From a virus, in the IMG/VR virus record IMGVR_UViG_3300008107_002648, positions 1 to 20,890 of that record: a DNA stretch of 20,890 nt; one strand, 5' to 3'. Position 1 is the stretch's first letter; each line of letters begins with the position of its first letter. A program made the translations under genes and the position numbers. This document shows positions 1,619 through 20,890 of this stretch, in pieces. The notes under the pieces are model-generated. The model did no database searches. It was not told the origin of the DNA and saw only the letters and a program-made list of their open reading frames with translations.

Positions 1619-2070
1619 CGGCTTCCTCCTCGCCGAATGATGTCGCCCACGCTCATCAACTGGTTATTAGAATAAGACTCTTTTCTGTTCTGTTCTACTC
1701 TACTCTTCTCTGGGGCGTTCTGATTCCGTTCTGATTCCGTTCCGTGCGCGTTCCGATAGCGTTCCTTTCTGGCTGCCGCCGTAGGGTCAGCCTGGTGCTT
1801 TCCCCAGTTTGTCACAGCGATCGAGCCGTCGTCGGCCCGCGTGAGCAGCCCCAGGGCCACCAGGCGCTTGAGGTGCCTGACATCGGCAACGCCGCCCACG
1901 CAGGCCCTAAAGTGCGCCTCGTTCTGAAAGCGCCCCTTCGGGGTCTGGTGGTACGCCTCAAACAGGGCGGCGTCCCAGAGGACATACGCCTCCGCGCCCT
2001 TCGCCTCACCGAGCAGTTGGACGATCTTGGGGTCTTTTAGCGTACCCGTATCCTTCTTGATCCAAGCCAT
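1615..2070 (-). CDS. Phage replisome-organiser N-terminal-like protein
   Basis: The 151-residue protein begins WIKKDTGTLKDPKIVQLLGE and continues GAEAYVLWDAALFEAY, HLKRLVALGLLTRADDGSI and VTNWGKHQADPTAAARKERYR. This order matches the N-terminal winged-helix domain of phage replisome organisers and DnaD-like initiators, which bind the origin and recruit the helicase loader. The C-terminal 40 residues are polar (many N, E, S, R) and look disordered. The segment ends with VGDIIRRGG. It overlaps metK by TAATG. The usual C-terminal helicase-loading domain is missing, so it may be a dedicated DNA-binding subunit or a regulator. The assignment rests on motif similarity read by eye. Confidence 0.6.
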   Translation of the reverse strand: MAWIKKDTGTLKDPKIVQLLGEAKGAEAYVLWDAALFEAYHQTPKGRFQNEAHFRACVGGVADVRHLKRLVALGLLTRADDGSIAVTNWGKHQADPTAAARKERYRNAHGTESERNQNAPEKSRVEQNRKESYSNNQLMSVGDIIRRGGSR

Positions 2071-3125
2071 TACTCCTCCTCCCAGGGCCGCCCAGCCACC
2101 CCGAAATGCCCATATGCCGCTGTCTCGCGGTAAATCGGGCGGCGTAGCCCGAAGCGCTCGATCATTGCCGCTGGCCTGAAGTCCCAGCCACCCCTCACCA
2201 ATGCGGTGGCAGCAGCCTCGTCTCCCGTCCCGAAGGTGTCCACCGTGACCATCACGGGCTCAGCCACCCCGATTGCATAGGCGACCGCAACCTCAGCGCG
2301 CTTTGCCAGCCCATTCCGCACGATAGCCTTTGCCGCGTGCCGAGCCGTATATGCGCCTGAACGGTCTACCTTCGTAGCATCCTTGCCGCTGAAGGCCCCG
2401 CCACCGTGCCTACCCTCTCCACCGTAGGTGTCCACGATGATCTTGCGGCCCGTCAGCCCAGCGTCCGCCTCTGGCCCGCCCTGGACGAACCGCCCAGTCG
2501 GGTTGATGAGGATCGCCACATTCGGTGCGAGCGTGCCATCAAGCGCGGTGCGGACGAACCGCTCCAAGTCCTGGCGTAGCGTCCCGATCGCGTATTCGGC
2601 GTCGTGTTGCGACGAAAGGATGACCGTGGAGATCAACCCGTGATCGCCAACCGTGACCTGTGCCTTGCCGTCTGGCCCAAGCCCGCTCAGCGCATCGGCC
2701 TTACGAACCTCCGCCAACCGCCTGGTGAGGCTATGCGCCGCCGTGATCGGGAGAGGCATCAGGTTTGGGCATTCGTTGCTGGCATAGCCATAGACGATGC
2801 CCTGATCCCCCGCCCCAATCGCATCGGGCCGAATAACCCCCATTGCGATGTCGGGCGACTGTTGCTTGATTGCGACACTAATGTCGAGCGCCTCTAGATT
2901 CTTGTGCCCGATCTGAAGCAGCATCGCCCTGGCCACGCCAGCGTGATCCACCTCCGCGTCCGAGGACGCCTCGCCAAAGATCCAAATCTCACTGCCGCTC
3001 GCCGCCACCTCGCACGCCACCCTTGCCATCGGGTCTTGCTGAAGATAGGCGTCGAGGATCGCGTCGCTGATCTGATCGCAGATCTTGTCAGGATGTCCTT
3101 CCGTGACTGATTCCGCCGTTCGCAT
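2070..3125 (-). CDS. metK: S-adenosylmethionine synthetase (methionine adenosyltransferase)
   Basis: The product makes S-adenosylmethionine from methionine and ATP. The 351 residues carry the MetK landmarks in order: TEGHPDKICDQISDAILD near the N-terminus (catalytic His and Mg-binding Asp), KQQSPDI, GAGDQG, the GKAQVT lysine, GLTGRKIIVDTYGG, HGGGAFSGKD with TKVDRSGAY, and IYRETAAYGHFG. All catalytic and metal-binding positions known from the E. coli enzyme that I could compare are kept, so it looks active. It is slightly short at both ends compared with the usual 380-400 residues. The ATG at 3125 follows a perfect AGGAGGT that overlaps the annealing-protein stop, so it is translated within the recombination operon. 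There is no room for a SAM riboswitch (9-base gap). No methyltransferase that would use the product is in this window. Confidence 0.95.
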   Translation of the reverse strand: MRTAESVTEGHPDKICDQISDAILDAYLQQDPMARVACEVAASGSEIWIFGEASSDAEVDHAGVARAMLLQIGHKNLEALDISVAIKQQSPDIAMGVIRPDAIGAGDQGIVYGYASNECPNLMPLPITAAHSLTRRLAEVRKADALSGLGPDGKAQVTVGDHGLISTVILSSQHDAEYAIGTLRQDLERFVRTALDGTLAPNVAILINPTGRFVQGGPEADAGLTGRKIIVDTYGGEGRHGGGAFSGKDATKVDRSGAYTARHAAKAIVRNGLAKRAEVAVAYAIGVAEPVMVTVDTFGTGDEAAATALVRGGWDFRPAAMIERFGLRRPIYRETAAYGHFGVAGRPWEEE

Positions 3126-3134
3126 TGGTACCTC

Positions 3135-3851
3135 CTAGAATGGGAGTGCCTCGAGGTCGTCCTCGGGCACGAGTTTGGTTGGGGCTGGCTCCGCCTTCTG
3201 CGAGGCGATCCACTTGATGCTCGGCTTCTCCTTGCACCACGATCCATCAGGCGCCTTGTGCGAGGCCGCCCAGAATGGGTTGTAGGGCTTGCCGCTGGCC
3301 TTGCTAATGCCGCCTGGCTTCAGGCTCCAGGCTTCGCCGTGGCTGCACGCGCCGTCGGCGGCGTTCTCGGCGAAGATCATTGCAGCCTTTGCCGCGATCA
3401 GGTCGTCGTCGCTGAAGCCCCTCAAAGGCGCTGGCTTGGCAGTTTGCGGGCCCGTGACGGGCGCTGCCGCCCTAACTGGGGCCTGGGTACCCTTCTCTGG
3501 GCTGTAGAGGCTCCTGCCCACCCCGATCTGCGCGGCGCACCTGCGGAGCGCATCCGAAGCCGCGCTCTTCAGCGGCTCGTCATCCTGTGCCGAGTTCGGG
3601 TAGCCGAAGTCCTGTCGGATGGTGGTCTTGCCACCAATCACGACAGCGAGTGAGCCGTGGACGACATTGCGTGCGGCGTCTGCAACCTTCACCTCAAACT
3701 GCCAGCCCTCAATGCCGAGCACATCGTCCAGCCGCTGCGCCACGGCCCGAGCGTCCGCGTATGTGAAGGTCATCCCAGCCCGACCTGGGCGATGCTTTAG
3801 ATCCTTCTCCTCGAATGGCGCCGCGAGCGCCTGTGCAATCTGCTTAGTCAT
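3135..3851 (-). CDS. Rad52-type single-strand annealing protein with SSB-like C-terminal tip
   Basis: Residues 15-118 match the Rad52/Rad22 annealing core used by phage recombinases: LKHRPGRAGMTFTYADA, then GWQFEVKV, GSLAVVI, TIRQDFG, and DEPLKSAASDALRRCAAQIGVGRSLYS. These proteins anneal complementary single strands produced by an exonuclease, here likely the YqaJ-type nuclease upstream. Residues 120-145 are a Pro/Ala-rich linker. Residues 168-215 contain CSHGEAW, SGKPYNPFW and GSWCKEKP, resembling a degenerate zinc-binding module with one Cys missing from each end. The protein ends EDDLEALPF, an acidic tip ending in Pro-Phe like that of bacterial SSB. The start ATG 3851 overlaps the preceding gene by 8 bases. 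Confidence 0.82.
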   Translation of the reverse strand: MTKQIAQALAAPFEEKDLKHRPGRAGMTFTYADARAVAQRLDDVLGIEGWQFEVKVADAARNVVHGSLAVVIGGKTTIRQDFGYPNSAQDDEPLKSAASDALRRCAAQIGVGRSLYSPEKGTQAPVRAAAPVTGPQTAKPAPLRGFSDDDLIAAKAAMIFAENAADGACSHGEAWSLKPGGISKASGKPYNPFWAASHKAPDGSWCKEKPSIKWIASQKAEPAPTKLVPEDDLEALPF

Positions 3852-4416
3852 TTTCGCCTCCTCTTAGTGCCTCAATGGATTCCAACGCGTGGTACTCAAT
3901 GTTCAGGCTTACAAAGCCAGCCTCCTGTCCGTTTGGCAAATGTCCCCCTTTCTCTACAACGAATGCCTTATCACTGAAACGGTCATAGGGGATGCAGCCC
4001 ATCACCCATCCCGCCTCGTATTTCTCCAGCGTCGGCGCAGACGCCTTGTCGTACCCAGGCGCAAACTTGAGCGACACAAAGCCAATCCAGTCAGGCCGCT
4101 GCCACGCCTGGTTATAGGCGTAGGCGCTGCCTTCGTAGTCTGGCCTCGGCTCGACCGAGCGCTCTTTTGTCTTGACCTCAAGACGGCCCGCAGGTACGCG
4201 GTAGTCGTGGGTGATTACGGCATCGGTGCCAAAAGCCACCCCGTACTCCTCCATCGCGCGCTCAAAGACTGCCTGACCAATCGCGCCGCACCACACGGCG
4301 CGGTCACCCTTGCCGCTAATGCTGCGATCCTGTGCCCCAGGCGGCAAGATGTTCTCCGCCCGCCTGATTTGCTCAGCGCGATGAAGGATCAGGCTATCAA
4401 TGTCCACGCGGATCAC
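3844..4416 (-). CDS. PD-(D/E)XK nuclease-like protein
   Basis: The 190-residue protein starts at GTG 4416 (GTGA overlap with the exonuclease gene). It holds GAIGQAVFERAMEEYGV, then THDYRV, and RLEVKTKERSV. The last is an E-x-K strand preceded by a Tyr/Arg strand, as in the restriction-endonuclease-like fold. A further segment, QRPDWIGFVSLKF, fits the buried beta-strand that follows the active site. A fold assignment as a PD-(D/E)XK nuclease is moderate; the catalytic Asp is likely in the DYRV strand. It sits between a YqaJ-type exonuclease and a Rad52-type annealing protein, so a recombination or DNA-end-processing role is inferred. No named family is recognised. Confidence 0.55.
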   Translation of the reverse strand: MIRVDIDSLILHRAEQIRRAENILPPGAQDRSISGKGDRAVWCGAIGQAVFERAMEEYGVAFGTDAVITHDYRVPAGRLEVKTKERSVEPRPDYEGSAYAYNQAWQRPDWIGFVSLKFAPGYDKASAPTLEKYEAGWVMGCIPYDRFSDKAFVVEKGGHLPNGQEAGFVSLNIEYHALESIEALRGGEND

Positions 4417-5372
4417 TCGCCGTCCTCAACCCTCTTGAATCTGAAGACCCGCGCACCAGGCTTTTCTACGGTGTGCGTCTTGATCGCCGCCTCGTAGGTG
4501 TCTGGCGCGACCGCCTTCGCGATCTCTGCCACGGCCTCCCAGTCCGTCTTGACGGTCGGCTTGTTCTGCTTCCAGGTCGCTTGCCACCCGCTGCCATAAA
4601 CGCCCGCCTTTTCGCCAATCGCCTCTTTGATTGAGATAGCCAGATTCGCCAACTCCTCATCGAGCAGGCGTGATTCGTATTGGCGCTCCGCGTATAGAGC
4701 AGCGACCCGCTCGATGCCGTCCGTTGCCGTCGCGAACTCGTCGCTGGCCTGCGGCTTTACGGATGCCAACGCATCCGAGTCCGCGCCCTGCAACGCGGGC
4801 GGCGTGCCGTTGATGACCGCGTCGCGGAAATCTATGGCTCTCTGGTATAGCCGCGTCTGATACTCGATGTCCTCGTCTACGCGCTGGATGCGGAATACCA
4901 GGCCGCCAAGCAGGGCAGCCACATCCACCCAGGGCGCGCCTGTCACGAACATTTGCCACTGAACTTGGGCCTCGACCTCAGGCGGGATCGGGTACATATT
5001 CCAGCGAGGCGACGCGCTCGTCTTGATCTCAACAAGGCCGTCATCCCCTACCACCGTCCGATCCAGGCTTGCCATTGCCCAGGGGATCTCTTTGATTCTC
5101 ACGATGCCGTTGCTGCGACGCAACTCGCGCCCTGTCTCCATCTCGTAGAACTCGGCCACCGTGTTCTCCAAGAGGATGCCGCGTACCGCCGCCGCGCCAG
5201 GGGCGTCGGGCGTGTATTCGCCACGCTTCTCGGCCCACAGTTGATACGGCGTTTTGTAGGGCGATAGCCCTGCGATGACTGCGGCATCCGTTGCAGTGAT
5301 GCCATCCTTGCGAAGCGCAAACCATTCAGGTGACCGCTGTTCAGCCTTGACGAACTCGAACCTCTTACTCAT
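4413..5372 (-). CDS. YqaJ / lambda-exonuclease-family viral recombinase nuclease
   Basis: From ATG 5372, with a strong AAGGAGGGG site, the protein has 319 residues; the in-frame extension to 5504 runs through the neighbouring zinc-ribbon gene and is rejected. Residues 11-52 (RSPEWFALRKDGITATDAAV, then GLSPYKTPYQLWAEK) are the signature N-terminus of the YqaJ family. The catalytic set follows: LLEN near 70, SLDR with Asp about 104, LVEIKTS with Glu 115 and Lys 117, and QVQWQM near 136-141. The enzyme should be a 5'-3' double-strand exonuclease that makes single strands for the Rad52-type annealing protein two genes downstream. The C-terminal third (residues 230-319) is helical and ends with a wing-like segment. 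Confidence 0.88.
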   Translation of the reverse strand: MSKRFEFVKAEQRSPEWFALRKDGITATDAAVIAGLSPYKTPYQLWAEKRGEYTPDAPGAAAVRGILLENTVAEFYEMETGRELRRSNGIVRIKEIPWAMASLDRTVVGDDGLVEIKTSASPRWNMYPIPPEVEAQVQWQMFVTGAPWVDVAALLGGLVFRIQRVDEDIEYQTRLYQRAIDFRDAVINGTPPALQGADSDALASVKPQASDEFATATDGIERVAALYAERQYESRLLDEELANLAISIKEAIGEKAGVYGSGWQATWKQNKPTVKTDWEAVAEIAKAVAPDTYEAAIKTHTVEKPGARVFRFKRVEDGE

Positions 5373-5526
5373 TTCCCCTCCTTCTTGCGATCTTTCTTGG
5401 CAAACCCGTCGCCGTTGTAGACGAGCGACCGCACTTCGCGCATCGCGGCGTATAGATTTGTTGGATCGAGTGCGTGTGCTCCTCACGCGCGCCGCACTCG
5501 CCACAGCGATATTCGTAAGTCGGCAT
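5365..5526 (-). CDS. FmdB-like zinc-ribbon protein
   Basis: A 53-residue protein that begins MPTYEYRCGECG and later has PRCAKCGRSSTTATG. The two CxxC knuckles, about 20 residues apart and preceded by PTYEY, are the hallmark of the FmdB-type zinc ribbon. A basic tail (RKIARRRG) follows. The start at ATG 5526 overlaps the upstream stop as TAATG. Such ribbons bind zinc and often nucleic acid or protein partners; the exact role in phages is unknown. It overlaps the exonuclease start by 8 bases, so the two are translationally linked. Confidence 0.8.
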   Translation of the reverse strand: MPTYEYRCGECGAREEHTHSIQQIYTPRCAKCGRSSTTATGLPRKIARRRGNE

Positions 5527-9081: not shown

Positions 9082-9252
9082 TTATTCCCTCCAGCGTAGT
9101 GGCCCCGTGCCGATCCACACGATCGTCAACAGGATGAATAGTGCAGCCATCGTGCTCTGGGTCTGGCCCTCTGGGAGCACTACGACAGCGAATAAGAGGC
9201 CGAGGATCGTCCAGGCCCCGCCGATGAGATCGAGGATAATATTCTTGAACAT
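9082..9252 (-). CDS. Two-span small membrane protein, holin candidate
   Basis: A 56-residue frame from ATG 9252 (TAATG overlap with the proline-rich gene) to TAA 9082, immediately before the next ATG. It has two hydrophobic helices (LIGGAWTILGLLFAVVVLP and MAALFILLTIVWIGTGPL) linked by a short polar loop (EGQTQST), with Lys at the start and RWRE at the end. Two-span proteins of this size in lysis cassettes are often class II holins or antiholins. No family signature is visible, so the function is inferred from topology and neighbours. Confidence 0.6.
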   Translation of the reverse strand: MFKNIILDLIGGAWTILGLLFAVVVLPEGQTQSTMAALFILLTIVWIGTGPLRWRE

Positions 9253-10406
9253 TATTGACGGCCCTTTCTGCTACGCGCAGCCTTCATATCGCCGCCTCCG
9301 CCACCGCCACCTCCGCCGCTTGTGCCGCCTGTCGTGCGTGCGGCATTTGCTGCCGCCGCTGCAACGCTGGCGATTTGGCTGGAGACAACGGCAACCGCCA
9401 TTGGTTGCGCCTCTTCTTTCTCAGTTGCGTCTAAGTCTTTCCCGATCTCGCCGATTGCAGCGATGTCGCCGAGCGCATCGGCGACGGCTTCCACGGCTGC
9501 GCCTGCAACCTCGGCGACCGCTTCAGCGGCCTCGCCTAGATCTGGCAGATCGGGCTGTGTTGGCTCAGGATCAGGAATGCTAGTGGGATCAGGAGATACC
9601 ACAGGAGATTCCGACGGCTCCTCTGATGGAGCGGGCGTCGGCTCGGGTGAGGCAGTCTCGTTTGGTTGCGTTGGATCAGGTGTTGGCTCATTTGATGGCT
9701 CCTCGCTTGGCTCTGGCGTCTGCTCTGGCTGCGTTGGCTCAGGCGACGGCTCAGGCGTGGCTGGTGCCTCCGTAGGTTGGGGTGTCGGCGTAGGCTCTAC
9801 GCTTGGCTCAGGAGTAGGGCTAGGCTCGGGCGTAGGTGGCTCTGTAGGCGACGGAGACGGCTCTACGCTCGGTTCTGGCGTAGGTGTCGGGGTCGGCTCA
9901 GGAGTCGGCTCTGGGGACGGCGCAGGGCTGCCTACGACCCAAGTCGTATTGTTGATCTGCAAGAAGCCCGCGCCGCAGCACGAGTCCGTGCTCATAATGC
10001 GGAATCCGAACAGGCCGCCAGCCGCGATGTAGACGACTTGGCTGCCGCTCTGTTGCAGCGGGTTGTAGCCAGCCTGATCCCAGATCGCGAGGTCAGTCCA
10101 GCTCTCATCGAGCAGCATCTGCGCTCGGTCGTAGAAGGCACCATCGGTCGTCCAGTACGCCCAGTCAAAGGTGACCGTCTCGCCAGTGGACGAATCGGTC
10201 GTCAAGCCAGTCACCGTGTTCTGCCAGGGATAGCCAGGGCCAGCGTTGTTGCTGCCTTGAATCAGGATCGTGCCTTCGGTCAGCGTGATCGTGCCGTTGG
10301 AATCAACCTGTTGATCCCACTCGTCGGCGCTGTCAAGCGCATAGACAGGCGCGAACGGCAAGAAAACCGCCGCTGCCGCCACGAAAGCGACAAGACGGCG
10401 GTTCAC
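9252..10406 (-). CDS. Exported protein with beta domain and long Pro-Glu-Thr rod
   Basis: The 384-residue protein starts at GTG 10406 (GTGA overlap). A clear signal peptide (NRRLVAFVAAAAVFLPFAPVYA, likely cut after YALD or VYA) precedes a domain of about 135 residues. That domain has GETVTFDWAYWTTDG, RAQMLLDESWTDL and LFGFRIMSTDSCCGAGF, patterns found in secreted beta-sandwich surface domains. Residues ~165-295 are a PEPTP/PSPEPS repeat rod. An acidic Ala-rich segment, a run of about ten Gly, and a basic tail (MKAARSRKGRQ) finish it. There is no LPXTG or clear C-terminal anchor. It lies between holin-like genes in the late operon. Possible roles include wall-spanning lysis factor, superinfection exclusion or adhesion; none is proven. 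Confidence 0.75.
   Translation of the reverse strand: MNRRLVAFVAAAAVFLPFAPVYALDSADEWDQQVDSNGTITLTEGTILIQGSNNAGPGYPWQNTVTGLTTDSSTGETVTFDWAYWTTDGAFYDRAQMLLDESWTDLAIWDQAGYNPLQQSGSQVVYIAAGGLFGFRIMSTDSCCGAGFLQINNTTWVVGSPAPSPEPTPEPTPTPTPEPSVEPSPSPTEPPTPEPSPTPEPSVEPTPTPQPTEAPATPEPSPEPTQPEQTPEPSEEPSNEPTPDPTQPNETASPEPTPAPSEEPSESPVVSPDPTSIPDPEPTQPDLPDLGEAAEAVAEVAGAAVEAVADALGDIAAIGEIGKDLDATEKEEAQPMAVAVVSSQIASVAAAAANAARTTGGTSGGGGGGGGGDMKAARSRKGRQ
9570..9930 (-). repeat. Degenerate tandem repeat encoding the Pro-Glu-Thr rod
   Basis: Short imperfect units of the type GG(C/A)(T/G)C(A/T)GG-CG read on the plus strand as repeated ggctc-aggcg-tagg words. They encode (P/S/T)EP(T/S)P-type peptides on the minus strand. 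Unit lengths vary in multiples of three, as expected for a coding repeat that grows and shrinks by slippage. It also creates a spurious Gly/Ser open frame on the plus strand. Confidence 0.7.
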
Positions 10407-13543: not shown

Positions 13544-15287
13544 TCAACCCCACGGATTCACATCCCAATACCCAGAATCCCAGGTTAGGACTTGGACTAC
13601 GCTTGTCGTGATCGTATCAGTGACGGCTCCCACAGAATCGCCAACAGGTGTCGGCGCGTCTAGTGGCCCCCACAGGCTGTTATCCCAGGTGAGTGCATTC
13701 TTGTCGGGATCGCCCGTTGGCGCCCAATACCACGGCCCTTCGTTAGATGCCGTGCTGATTGTATCGCTGATCGCGCCGACGATATCGCCGATCTCGATCT
13801 GCAACGGCCCTGGCAGCGCAGGCAGGCCTTCAATGCTGCACTCGTAGCCGCTCTGCGCGTTGAAGCGCCAGTTGATATTGGCGACCTGTTGGAGGTAGGT
13901 CTTGTTGCGCGCCGAGTCAATAACACCGAACACCTCGCCCGCCTTCAGCGGAACGCCTGGCGCAGAGTCTAGGGTCACGCGTACTCGGGAGGTACGGATT
14001 CTTGAGGCTCAACGGCAGGATTTGCCCGCCGAGGAGTTCCTGGCCGTCAATATCATCGGCCTGCGTCGCATAAAGCGAGGAGAGGCGAGCAGGCTTACCA
14101 ATGAGGGTAAAGCCCGTGACATAAACCGCAGCGGTGCCTGCAAGATTCTTGAAGGTCACCTGGGCGCGGTTGCCGTCGCCTGTAGCCGTGCCGCCGACCG
14201 TGAGTTCGTAGTAGAGGTTCCCATCAAGGGTAGTGACGGAGGCTGGATCGCCCTGCACCATCGGGATCGCTGTCCCGCCTGTGGGCGCAGAGGCCGCCGT
14301 AGCGACGCTGGGATTATTCCCCCCAGCCGTTCCAACAGACGCCCAAGTCACGGGCGTGTAGTCAATCCAGCGAGTCTTATCCTGGGCCTCAATGCTCAGG
14401 GTGATCTCGCCAGGCACAAAGAAGCCGCTTGCCGACCCTGCCGCTGGGATCGTGATCGGCGTGGTGATCTCAAAAACCGTTTCATCGCTGACCGATGAGG
14501 CGCGATCCTCGTACTCAAGCAGCGCTCGGTTGATCGCTGTCTCCGTGTTGCGAAGGACGCTGACCTCAAACGGATAAGATTCCTTATCCAAAGTGATCAA
14601 CGGCGAGCGTAGGCTTTCTGTCTGCGTGTTGCGGTCATTGAAGGTGAGCACGCCATCCTCGTCTACGAAGATGCGCCCGCCCTCGGCAATGGCAAGGAGG
14701 CCCAGTTCGGTGCCAAGCGGCTGCCCAGTGGAGGCGGCAAAGAGGGCGGTGCCAAAGGCAGTGCCTGCGGTGGTATACGACGAGATGCCCAGGCCTGCTT
14801 TACTCGCATAGGCGCTGAACACGGTATCAAGCGCGACATTGGCGCGAGGGCCGTAGTAGGTCGGCGTGTTGGCGAAGCGCGCAGAGATATCGAGGAGACG
14901 CATCTGAGCGACTCGGCCCTGCTCCTTTGGCACGAGTGAGCGCACGATGTAGATGCCCAGTTGTCGGAACTGCGCCGCGCCGTTGTAGTAGTAGCCCAGG
15001 CTGATCTTTGCCTTTGTCGTCAGGAAAGCGCCCTGGAGGTATTGCCAGATCGGGCTGCTCTCGTTCTCGGCGCTAAAGCGCTGGTTGAGATTGTCTAGCG
15101 TGATATTGCACTCGCCTGGCTGGAGCGCGCCCGTATCAGGATCAAATGATTCCACGCCAGCGGCGTCTAGAACATAGCCAGTCTCGTCGTCGTATACGCC
15201 ATCGCCATCCCAGTCAATCTCAATCCTGAGGACGGGACGGTGCTGCTTATCTGCGATCGCGGCGATCAGGTTCGCGCTTAGTGCCAC
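13544..15287 (-). pseudogene. Tail hub/baseplate protein gene, disrupted by a frameshift near 13990
   Basis: The 5' part (15287 down to about 13995, GTG start after AGGAGG) encodes a tail hub-like protein: PVLRIEIDWDGDGVYDDETG, ALQPGECNITLDN, FRQLGIYIVRSLV, MRLLDISARFANT, LNLL-type repeats, and QELLGGQILPLSLKNPYLPS. That frame then runs through meaningless Arg/Gly sequence to a stop at 13917. The conserved continuation, VRVTLDSAPGVPLKAGEVF, VIDSARNKTYLQQVANINWRF, lies in the +1 frame and runs to 13544. A helix normally separates the NPYL-type motif from the VTL strand in such proteins, so about 20 codons may be missing. Either a real lesion or an assembly error. DWDGDGVYDDE could bind calcium. 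Confidence 0.7.
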
Positions 15288-15296
15288 GGTCGCCTC

Positions 15297-15701
15297 CTAA
15301 CTTGTGCGGGCGTCAACCTCAACAAGCGTGATCTGGTAATCGCCCTTCGTCACATCGGGGTAGGTCGTCACCAGATCGCTGATTGAGTCAATGCGGACGG
15401 TCACGCCAGACTGTGCGGCAGTCCACGGGCCGCCCGACCAGAGGAAGGTCGTCGTCTGTTGATTGCTCACATTCGCCCAATAGAGCGCCACGAGCGCGTC
15501 GTAAGTCGTGATGTTCTCGTACTCAAATGAGAGCGTGTAGCCGTATCGGTAGCCGACAGACCACGATCGGATTGAGCCGTTGACGGTAAGGCGGCTGCCG
15601 CCGACCGTGCTGAACTCAAGTTTATTGGCGGTCGTGCGCGTAGGATATGGCAGCGTGATCGTCGTCGCGCCAGAAGATAGCGTCGGCTGGCTTACGCTCA
15701 T
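15297..15701 (-). CDS. Small tail protein upstream of the hub
   Basis: A 134-residue beta-rich protein starting at ATG 15701 (ATGA overlap with the correct C-terminal frame of the tape measure). It has TTITLPYPTRTTANKLEFST, GSIRSWSVGYRYGYTLSFEY, then WANVSNQQTTTFLWSGG and KGDYQITLVEVDART. Its size and place, between tape measure and hub, fit a distal-tail or minor tail protein linking the tube to the baseplate. It lacks Cys and any membrane segment. I do not recognise a named family. Confidence 0.7.
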   Translation of the reverse strand: MSVSQPTLSSGATTITLPYPTRTTANKLEFSTVGGSRLTVNGSIRSWSVGYRYGYTLSFEYENITTYDALVALYWANVSNQQTTTFLWSGGPWTAAQSGVTVRIDSISDLVTTYPDVTKGDYQITLVEVDARTS

Positions 15702-17256
15702 CGAGCACCCCCGAGCACGGTGCCTCGGCGCTTGGCCTCGTCATTGAGCGCGCCGTAGATGCGGCGGGCGAACTCGCGGGCATCGTCAGACGAGCCGAGG
15801 AAGGCTCCCGCCTGGAGGGTGACATTGATCTGCCCGCCCAGGCCATTATTTGGCACGATGCTGCCTGACTGATTCGGCACAAAGAGTTCAGGCCCTCGCT
15901 CGCCGACCATATACTGTTGCCCGCCAGTGACGGGGCCGCCCAGTGCGCGTCCGCGCTCTCTCGCTGGGCCGCCTGCACCGCCGCGCGGCAGGAATCCCCG
16001 TCGCCCCACAGAATGCCGACCAGACTTTTGACGACATCAAATGCCGCGCCGAACGCGCGCACGATGTTCGTGCCAACCATCAGAACAAGATCGCCGACAA
16101 CTGTGATGACGGGCTTGAGCGCGGCAAACAGTTTGTCTACGAGTTCTCGGAATGGCGTGATGGTGTTGTAGGCGATGATGAATCCAGCGACAAGTGCGGC
16201 GATTGCCGCGACTACGAGCACGATCGGGTTCATTGCCATTATTGCGTTGAAGATGCCCATCGCGGTTGCGGCCAGGCGTGTCGCGGTAGCCGCAACATTG
16301 ACTGCGATCGTGAAAGCAGTGTAGGCGCCAATGATGGCGAGTACCAGGCCCGTGTTGTCGCCGATGAACTTGCCAAGTTCGCTCAGCGCCGCGACCAGCG
16401 TGCCGATGATGGCACCGCCTACGGCGATCACGACTGGTAGCACTCGGTTCACCATCGTGTCAATGAACGGGCGCAACTTATCAATGGCCTGGGTAAAGGC
16501 GTTGGCGAAGGCGATGCCAAACTCCTTGACGCGCGGCATAATCTCATCGCGGAAGGTGGTCAGCACCTCTGCCAAGATCGGCAGCACGACGCGCCCGATA
16601 TCTTCCACGGTGTTGTCAATAGCGATCTGAATACTCTCAAGAGCACCCTGCGTGGTGTCGCCATAGGCTTCGGCTTGCCCTGCGGCGGCCTGTTGAATCA
16701 TCGCCAGCGCTTCGGTTGAGGTTGCGCCCTTCTCTACCGTGAACCCGTAGCGGCTGAGGATGGAGGTGTTGCCGCTAAAGACCTTGCCGACGAGATCGGA
16801 TGCCGTGCTGAGGTCAACCCCGCGCAGGCGAGCAAAGTCCATCGCGATTGACTGGAGTTCAATCGCCTTCGTGACATCGCCCGTGCGTGGCACAAGGCGC
16901 GAGAGCGAGTCGCGGAGTGCGTCGTCGCTGAAGGCAAGATTCTGGCGAGCCTCGATCGCCGCATCCATCTGCTTAGTCTGCTCATCGGTGATCGTCGTGT
17001 TCGCGCTGATCGCGGCGTTGAGTCGGGCAATCGAGGCATCTTCCTCGGCTGCGGCCTTCGCCGCTGCAAACATCGCGCCGCCCACGGCAACGGCTGCACC
17101 CGCTGCAATGGCAAAGCCCTTCGCGGCAGCGGCAAACGGAGCGTTCAGCGTGCCAGCGGTTTTCTCTAGATTGCGCGCCGTCTTGTTGAGTTCGCGCATT
17201 CCTTTAGAGGCGGAATCCTTGAGAATGAAGGCGAGTGTCGTCGTTCGTTCAGCCAC
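15698..17256 (-). pseudogene. Tape measure protein gene, disrupted by a frameshift near 16000
   Basis: From GTG 17256 the protein has a helical N-terminus (LAFILKDSASKGMRELNK), a TMP conserved region (LSRLVPRTGDVTKAIELQS, DLVGKVFSGNTSILSRYG), and several hydrophobic helices (LPVVIAVGGAIIGTLVAA; IVLVVAAIAALVAGFIIAY) reaching SLVGILWGDG. After that the frame turns to nonsense and continues to 15622 through the next gene. A typical tape-measure C-terminus, RALGGPVTGGQQYMVGERGP then LFVPNQSG, lies in the -1 frame from about 16009 and stops at 15698 with an ATGA overlap. G-runs at 15996-15999 and 16004-16007 are the likely site of a lost or gained base; a larger deletion is possible because the segment usually found before GGPVTGG is absent. 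The protein sets tail length. Confidence 0.82.
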
Positions 17257-19249: not shown

Positions 19250-19628
19250 TACGGTGCGATCGTGCCCAATACTTCGCGAGTCGTCACTTCCACCTGCATC
19301 TCAATCACGGCGAACATCTCGCCGCCGTATTCAGATTCTCCCATACGAATGTCAGGCGCGAGTGCGCGTACCACGACAGTTGGCAATCCAAGTTCCATCT
19401 TGTTGACGACCTGCTCAACGAGCACATCGCGCCAGGCGTAGAGCGCCTTCACGACTCGATCGGTGCCCGATGCCTTTGCCACATAGAAACGCACAGGGAA
19501 TCGGTGCACCTGGCGCACAAGGCGATTAGGGCCGTATTCCGCCGTGGTGGAAGGGGGGAAAACCACCACGGACGGAAACACGGAGATCATATCAGGCGGC
19601 AATGCATGGCATAGGTGTTGAGCGCCAT
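19249..19628 (-). pseudogene. Tail terminator-like protein gene with a 5' frame break
   Basis: The natural start is ATG 19628: it overlaps the connector stop as TAATG and has AGGCGG in front. That frame reads MALNTYAMHCRLI and stops at TGA. The conserved body lies in the -1 frame: LPPDMISVFPSVVVFPPSTT, RFPVRFYVAKASGTDRVVKA, LYAWRDVLVEQVVNKM, and FAVIEMQVEVTTREVLG. This order is that of tail terminator/completion proteins. Either a base is lost or inserted around 19595-19610 (or a short N-terminal helix segment is missing), or translation truly begins at TTG 19602 or ATG 19590, which lack ribosome binding sites. Confidence 0.6.
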
Positions 19629-20230
19629 TAGACCGCCTGGGCTGGAATGCGATACGCGCGCAGCATCTGCTCAACATCAGGGTCGAGTCGCGCCAGGAGG
19701 CGCATCTGGCCCACTTCGGGAGCACCCGCAATGCCGAATGGCGTGTTGCGGCGATTGAAGATACGCCCGCTCTGAATGATGCAACTCATCTCGATCGGTC
19801 GCGGCACGGCAGGCCAGCCGCGTGTGCCGACGATCTTGACTCCCTTGACGATCTCCACAGGGAAGGTGTTTGCGCCTTCAGTGAGCGCGATTACTTCGGT
19901 GAACGGTCGTCCAGTTGTTGCAGCGTTGAATGGCGCGAGCGCGCAGTCCGTGTTGATGACCCAAGAGGTGCTATAGGTGCCGTTGGCATCGCCATCGGTC
20001 GTGATCGCTGAAACGGAGGCGAAATCGTCAATCGGCTGCACAAGGTAATCTTGCGCCGTGTAGAAGGCGGTGGATGCAGCGGACTGATAAAAGAAGCGTC
20101 CGCAGTAATCGTCAATCAGGCGGCTGACGGACTCAATGACGAGTTCCAACTCGCCGTCGGAGGTCGCGTCAATGATGCCGAGAGCCTGCTTGACTGCGCT
20201 CCCCGTGGTATAGCCGTTCGTGATTGCCAT
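19628..20230 (-). CDS. Head-tail connector (gp6-like adaptor)
   Basis: The 200-residue protein begins with a helical bundle: YTTGSAVKQALGIIDATSDG, then LELVIESVSRLIDDYCGRFF. The AVxxALGI.D...D..L...I..AS..ID.Y.GR.F pattern is that of head-tail connector proteins of the HK97 gp6/SPP1 gp15 kind. A beta segment (YLVQPIDDFASVSAITTDG) and a C-terminal helical part (LARLDPDVEQMLRAYR) follow. The protein forms the ring under the portal. ATG 20230 overlaps the nucleotidyltransferase stop region directly (one shared base). Confidence 0.82.
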   Translation of the reverse strand: MAITNGYTTGSAVKQALGIIDATSDGELELVIESVSRLIDDYCGRFFYQSAASTAFYTAQDYLVQPIDDFASVSAITTDGDANGTYSTSWVINTDCALAPFNAATTGRPFTEVIALTEGANTFPVEIVKGVKIVGTRGWPAVPRPIEMSCIIQSGRIFNRRNTPFGIAGAPEVGQMRLLARLDPDVEQMLRAYRIPAQAV

Positions 20231-20850
20231 CAGGTCTCCTTGATTGGTTGGACACGCTTGAGCGCATCAGGGTCGCCAGCATCTTGCCAACCGCGCACGA
20301 TAAGTTCCGTGAGCGGCTGGTGAGGTGCATACGACCTCAGAACATCAGCCATATGCACTTCATTGGTTGAGCCGAGTTTGAGGTCATAGCAGATATCGTT
20401 GAGCAGTTCGCGATTGGTGAATCGGTAGATGCCGCAGCATACTAGAACCTGCGGCACGCCGCGCGTCCACCCGCCCTCTGCGTGTTCGTAGTAATCCCAG
20501 ATTCTCCAGGGTGCAGGCGCAACGCCCACCCAATCGCCGCGTTGCGTGGGCACCTGCGGGAGCAGGGTATCGGCAAAGAGCACCGTGAGGTCGCCCCCTG
20601 GAAGGCCTGTAGAGGCGCTCAGGAGCGCCCCAGAGGGGCCGTCTGCCTCATCGTGAGGAATCACCCCAGTTAGCCACGGAGCAGCGCTTAGCACCGCCTT
20701 CTCGTGCTCGCCTCGGACGACCGCGTAGGTCGCTTGATCACCAGCCGCGCGGCGATGCCATTCGTGCACGGGCAGTCCCGCTGCCTCCACGAGCAGTTTA
20801 TTGACGCCACCTAGTCGCGTGGCCTTGCCAGCGGCAAGGATGACGATCAC
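20230..20850 (-). CDS. Sugar-nucleotidyltransferase-like protein
   Basis: A 206-residue protein from GTG 20850. It starts MIVILAAGKATRLGGVNKLL, the nucleotide-binding loop of GT-A-type NTP transferases (LAAG-x2-TRL...K). It continues GPSGALLSAS, LTVLFADTLLP with the metal-binding Asp, VCCGIYRF, NEVHMADVLRSY and GWQDAGDPDALKRV, which matches the end of glucose-1-phosphate and related transferases (W-x-D-x-G-x-x-x-x-L). The enzyme would activate a sugar (or similar phosphate) as an NDP derivative. It is out of place between capsid-side genes and the head-tail connector. Possible uses are virion glycosylation or host surface change; no glycosyltransferase is in the window. Substrate unknown. Confidence 0.75.
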   Translation of the reverse strand: MIVILAAGKATRLGGVNKLLVEAAGLPVHEWHRRAAGDQATYAVVRGEHEKAVLSAAPWLTGVIPHDEADGPSGALLSASTGLPGGDLTVLFADTLLPQVPTQRGDWVGVAPAPWRIWDYYEHAEGGWTRGVPQVLVCCGIYRFTNRELLNDICYDLKLGSTNEVHMADVLRSYAPHQPLTELIVRGWQDAGDPDALKRVQPIKET

Positions 20851-20890
20851 GGTCGGCTCTCGTGAGGATGGCTTTCGGAAAGGTCGTAGT
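20847..20890 (-). CDS. C-terminal end of an upstream gene, cut by the window edge
   Basis: A frame open from the window edge reads YDLSESHPHESRP and ends with TGA 20847, overlapping the nucleotidyltransferase GTG as GTGA. The overlap matches the junction style of the other genes, so this is probably the tail of a real gene. The product cannot be identified from 14 codons. Confidence 0.4.
   Translation of the reverse strand, partial: YDLSESHPHESRP

Follow-up and report, generated by a model that had tools for sequence, protein, structure and literature searches.

A nucleotidyltransferase gene in a putative virion glycosylation cassette between the capsid and connector genes of uncultivated phages

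Phage capsid glycosylation is known from a small number of mycobacteriophages, and Che8, Corndog and Myrna are described as glycosylating capsid or tail proteins with glycosyltransferases of their own (PMC12363180, PMC11256854). The locus analysed in this study resembles these systems in having a set of phage-encoded glycosyltransferases. Che8 gp108 was found using the GT2 family described below (31 bits, hhalign probability 82), a match that is expected in a family as broad as PF00535. Che8 gp108-110 gave no significant match to the GT4 or to the nucleotidyltransferase, and the Che8 arrangement differs in that its three glycosyltransferases are located at the far end of the genome, outside the capsid-connector interval.

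The closest cultured phages are Pontimonas phage phiPsal1 and Microcystis phage Mae-JY09, whose hosts are an actinobacterium and a cyanobacterium. Of the cultured phages, phiPsal1 has the most similar capsid protein (35%), and the GT4 is 37.5% identical to its phiPsal1 counterpart and 37.9% identical to that of Mae-JY09. In phiPsal1 the same GT4 family occupies the same interval, in the order capsid, GT4, methyltransferase, GT2 and neck, but the GT2 is a different one, a methyltransferase is present and the nucleotidyltransferase is absent from the interval. Mae-JY09 also carries GT4 in its capsid-adaptor interval (capsid, a small gene, GT4, a GT2-like gene, an epimerase, another gene and the adaptor), whereas the GT2-like gene and the NAD-dependent epimerase replace the nucleotidyltransferase there. 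The function of these interval genes is not discussed in the paper on phiPsal1 (PMC6106888).

Position and linkage of the nucleotidyltransferase gene

The window, that is, the whole stretch of DNA analysed, is a virus record of 20,890 bases. Its minus strand encodes, in order, the last codons of GT2, the sugar-1-phosphate nucleotidyltransferase-like protein (NTase), the connector, two neck genes, the tail genes and an early region (Table 1); the GT4 and most of the GT2 lie beyond the window edge. Record L002 matches the window at 100% identity across an overlap of 1285 bases and provides the sequence upstream of that edge, and the full GT2 gene was read in L002 and in relatives such as L011 (9242-9784). 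An earlier note on this DNA had placed the NTase directly upstream of the connector with one base in common, and this is confirmed by the open reading frame and by the sequence TGATG, in which the NTase stop and the connector ATG meet. At the other end of the gene the GT2 stop overlaps the NTase GTG start as GTGA. Both overlaps are retained in 31 close relatives, and comparison with close relatives indicates purifying selection on the NTase (pN/pS 0.13-0.19).

Table 1. Features of the NTase gene and its immediate neighbours, in window coordinates
Feature	Position	Strand	Details
Sugar-1-phosphate nucleotidyltransferase-like protein (NTase)	20230..20850	-	206 aa, GTG start
Head-tail adaptor (connector)	19628..20230	-	phrog_442, 7e-15; ATG overlaps NTase stop
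GT2-family glycosyltransferase, 3' end (..YDLSESHPHESRP*)	20847..20888	-	Overlaps NTase start
Nucleotide-binding loop LAAGKATRLGG, residues 5-15	20806..20838	-	G8 and R12 invariant in 25 relatives
Lys18, after the nucleotide-binding loop	20797-20799	-	K18 invariant in 25 relatives
Catalytic metal-binding Asp94 (FADT)	20569..20571	-	Invariant in 25 relatives; aligned with MobA ..FCPCDTPYIP
Second catalytic motif W188-Q-D190-A-G-D193	20272..20289	-	Aligned with RmlA AWLDTGTHQSL

Relatives with enough flanking sequence share the order major capsid protein (PF05065), GT4 (PF00534), GT2 (PF00535), NTase and connector. In a set of related, partly redundant metagenomic contigs, where the counts therefore describe a lineage and not independent trials, GT2 lies directly upstream of NTase at 58 of 58 NTase loci and NTase directly after GT2 at 75 of 76 testable GT2 loci, while GT4 is upstream of NTase at 51 of 54 loci, the major capsid gene upstream at 46 of 49 and the connector immediately downstream at 46 of 55. 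The NTase and GT2 thus behave as a unit, and together with GT4 they constitute a predicted three-gene sugar-attachment cassette, which this virus group keeps between the genes for its major capsid protein and its connector. Phage-encoded glycosyltransferases, one mark of virion glycosylation and a class of genes that the earlier note had proposed seeking in the rest of the genome, are found as the GT2 end in the window and as GT4 and GT2 in the relatives. In the relatives, Pfam assigned both families (1.6e-13 for GT2 and 3.1e-13 for GT4), as did PHROGs, and a structure model of GT2 has the GT-A fold, with RmlT, TarP, WrtF and others nearest and TarS also among its neighbours.

The cassette is probably co-translated with the capsid and connector genes. 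Within L011 6400-11500, promoter-like sites were no more frequent than expected by chance, and terminator-like sites on the operon strand were confined to the connector and neck genes.

Several other features of the window were recorded. Near position 19606, the window lacks approximately 79 bases of the L002 sequence close behind the start of the first neck gene downstream of the connector, which breaks the frame of that gene; either a genuine deletion or an error of assembly may be responsible. Compared with L011, where each forms a single ORF, the tape measure gene (15622-17256 and 15698-16009) and the next large tail gene (13917-15287 and 13544-13978) appear split between frames, which points to indels or errors of assembly in the window record. 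On the minus strand at 2070-3125 is a metK gene for S-adenosylmethionine synthetase (421.6 bits with TIGR01034, whose cut-off is 309.4; phrog_1569), which occurs in a lineage where C5 DNA methylase was not found in five records, possibly fragments. A Rad52-like annealing protein (PF04098) near a YqaJ exonuclease (3135-3851 and 4413-5504, minus strand) forms a recombination pair. The minus-strand gene at 9252-10406 encodes a protein of 384 aa with no Pfam match, in which Pro-Glu-Pro-Ser/Thr repeats form a long tract, and this protein is a possible glycan acceptor.

Motifs, predicted fold and the relation to MobA

The NTase matches the MobA-like Pfam family NTP_transf_3 (3.3e-10, 40.8 bits, cut-off 27), and its C-terminal half reaches 17.2 bits against NTP_transferase PF00483, below the cut-off of 21.2. 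A first scan of viral contigs recovered 41 relatives at 47-100% identity, and a profile scan added others down to 43%. No bacterial homologue was found by tblastn across 84,980 genomes, a search whose sensitivity was limited by pattern seeding. The sole match in cultured phages was in Pseudoalteromonas phage XG4 (23.7%). In Arthrobacter phage Atuin, a gene annotated as "nucleotidyl transferase" lies beside a GT2 relative; it gave no match to the NTase profile.

The glycine-rich loop and the WxDxG-type C-terminus described in the earlier note (here WQDAGDP, residues 188-194) were both found. In an alignment of 25 NTase family members, G8, R12, K18, D94, W188, D190, A191, G192 and D193 are invariant, so that no member carries a substitution at the catalytic Asp, a change that the note had named as evidence against its reading. 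Of the features that define the superfamily, the glycine-rich loop with Arg and Lys, the catalytic Asp and the second metal-binding Asp in WxDxG are all present, and the predicted model has the GT-A-like NTP transferase fold across the full chain. This model is confident (pLDDT 88, pTM 0.86). The best of the PDB matches listed align approximately 200 residues at Z scores of 19-22 and rmsd of 2.6-3.3, and include glucose-1-phosphate thymidylyltransferase, UDP-glucose pyrophosphorylase, GlmU, inositol-1-phosphate cytidylyltransferase and PntC; Foldseek also matched MurU. The call of an RmlA- or GlmU-like fold, made originally from motifs, is therefore upheld by structure comparison. The NTase shares this whole-chain predicted fold and these residues with RmlA, GalU, the GlmU N-domain and MurU (PF00483/PF12804), but it is only 206 aa long and 14-22% identical to the solved members listed.

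Among solved structures, E. coli MobA is the nearest in sequence, in a match confined to NTase residues 3-77 (3.9e-5); hhalign with E. coli MobA gave a probability of 92.7. The likeness covers the first 75 residues (KATRLGGVNKLLVE in the NTase, KARRMGGVDKGLLE in MobA) and a ..DTxxxP segment, and this first half of the NTase is closer to MobA than to RmlA. The alignment gives MobA no counterpart to WQDAGDP, and the neighbours of the NTase are glycosyltransferases. Residues 138-200 align instead with E. coli RfbA (RmlA), placing WQDAGDPDAL on WLDTGTHQSL, a match that is weak alone (E 0.007). Judged from these alignments, the NTase sequence is a mosaic of an N-terminal part nearest MobA and a C-terminal part that aligns with RmlA. 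Among eight E. coli enzymes aligned for base specificity (MobA, GlmU, RfbA, CpsB, GalU, MocA, IspD and GalF), good alignment in the N-terminal half was limited to MobA and a short stretch of GlmU, and for this reason no base specificity was called. The similarity to MobA and the presence of GDP-mannose dehydratase as a neighbour in other phages weakly suggest a GDP-sugar product. For phage genes of this kind, annotation as MobA-like can mislead.

The capsid-connector interval and exchange of cassette parts

A search anchored on the connector, made without regard to sugar genes, yielded 67 loci holding both the capsid and connector genes. All 67 had a glycosyltransferase-like gene in the interval: GT4 in 38, and in the remaining 29 a homologue of L255 2416-3099, another GT2-like gene. 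The NTase was found in 29 of the 67. The L255 gene represents a separate capsid-slot family (L251-L291) that is GT2-like by a weak Pfam match, with PF00535 above cut-off in L291 (9.5e-6) and below it in two others. The earlier note had argued from the rarity of sugar enzymes in late operons; that argument fails in this phage group, because a glycosyltransferase between capsid and connector is the rule there. GT4 is more widespread than the NTase, and a GT4 scan found it at 80 loci, nearly all between capsid and connector. In the close siblings L077-L080, L084, L236 and L238-L243 it stands alone without the GT2-NTase pair, and at other loci it occurs with other glycosyltransferases, methyltransferases or NAD-dependent epimerases.

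Variation within the cassette was read from an identity table for loci in which the capsid protein shares 89-96% identity with its L011 counterpart. Relative to L011, the GT4 alleles are either 84-93% or 71-75% identical and the GT2 alleles either 81-97% or 64-68%, and in the same loci the NTase is 84-93% identical throughout. Three of the four GT4/GT2 combinations were seen (92/64 in L003, 73/97 in L017 and 92/96 in L006, as % identity to L011). This pattern in the sequences suggests that GT4 and GT2 alleles have been exchanged, independently of each other, around a constant NTase.

The GT2-NTase pair also occurs in phages where no HK97-type capsid gene adjoins it (L183, L184, L203-205, L208 and L210-214), so the capsid-adjacent position is not universal and the pair can be viewed as a portable unit. 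No Phage_capsid match was present in L183, L184, L203, L204 or L208 (records of 60.9, 43.7, 19.5, 90.8 and 22.6 kb), nor in L210-L214 where tested. L183, L184, L203, L204 and L208 carry both a GDP-mannose 4,6-dehydratase and an epimerase-type match, and in those examined (L183 and L052/L204) the dehydratase and epimerase adjoin the pair. A TET-associated glycosyltransferase, a PIG-L deacetylase and a C5 DNA methylase are close to the pair in the 58-kb record L205/G018, which also contains a match to TET/JBP dioxygenase; the locus in L205 is a candidate for DNA hypermodification. We tentatively suggest, as a possibility that falls short of the probable, that the GT2-NTase unit is portable, that the capsid-connector interval is a site of glycan-cassette exchange, and that the outcome would be a serotype-like variation of capsid glycans built on a phage-made nucleotide sugar.

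Proposed function and alternative explanations

The explanation that we favour, with a probability of roughly 0.6 for the whole, is virion glycosylation by NTase, GT2 and GT4. The NTase would convert a host sugar-1-phosphate and an NTP to a nucleotide sugar, GT2 would take this as its donor, and GT4, whose alleles and presence vary separately, would add the first or another sugar. The product would most likely be a short glycan attached to one of the virion proteins, the leading candidate being the major capsid protein. The separate steps differ in strength. Based on the fold and catalytic residues in the model and sequence, the NTase is very probably a catalytically functional sugar nucleotidyltransferase, and sequence and gene context make it quite probable that it supplies the donor to the adjacent GT2. 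That the target is a virion protein appears reasonably likely from the position of the genes and the precedent of Che8 and Corndog. The cassette is encoded together with the capsid and connector, and its products are probably made alongside them, so a virion protein is the likeliest acceptor. Capsid protein is usually the most abundant protein of a virion, and it leads the candidates for this reason and because its gene adjoins GT4.

Virion decoration is the better of the two roles offered by the earlier note, the other being a late change of host surface sugars. In that alternative the cassette would alter host surface glycans, or make a nucleotide sugar for that purpose, and so prevent superinfection or the renewed adsorption of progeny. 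Cell-surface glycan synthesis commonly involves GT4 enzymes, the hosts of the nearest cultured relatives are an actinobacterium and a cyanobacterium, and the structural neighbours of GT2 include the wall teichoic acid transferases RmlT, TarP and TarS; the last point carries little information, however, since most GT2 enzymes share this fold match. The NTase overlaps its neighbours at both ends between the capsid and connector genes, and a glycosyltransferase slot is kept at this position across divergent lineages, which makes a host-surface role unlikely. A role of NTase and GT2 in DNA hypermodification, by glycosylation of a modified base, would fit the neighbourhood of the pair in L205/G018 and the C5 DNA methylase of some cassette phages (G006-G008, G014). 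It is nevertheless improbable for the window lineage, which keeps these genes in the virion operon beside the capsid-slot GT4 and in which neither TET/JBP nor C5 DNA methylase was found in five records (7,990-33,483 bases, possibly fragments).

The earlier note had regarded closest relatives among molybdenum cofactor enzymes as evidence against its reading, and on this the results are divided. The best solved sequence match is indeed MobA, within its 75-residue span, and the fold is matched equally well by sugar enzymes and by inositol-phosphate and phosphonate cytidylyltransferases, as would be expected if the NTase were a cofactor enzyme of the MobA or MocA kind, or acted on a non-sugar phosphate (an alditol phosphate or phosphonate, for example), unrelated to glycosylation. 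Against this, the NTase scores 18.7 bits with the MobA equivalog TIGR02665 (molyb_mobA; cut-off 151.85) and 13.5 with that for MocA (186.45), its WxDxG half aligns with RmlA, and its invariant neighbour is a glycosyltransferase; we consider the cofactor or non-sugar reading highly improbable. The equivalog cut-offs for GlmU (21.9 bits against 505) and IspD (11.7 against 181.3) were likewise not reached. MobA does not appear among the 50 structural matches listed for the NTase model, a listing that does not exclude it.

A glycosyltransferase-like gene is present in every capsid-connector interval of the connector-anchored set of uncultivated phages, often with helper sugar enzymes, and one branch adds the NTase, which would provide an activated sugar of the phage's own making. 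The small cassette offers a defined set of enzymes for assay. Confirmation of virion glycosylation would establish glycans with exchangeable parts as a regular feature of the virions of many environmental phages.
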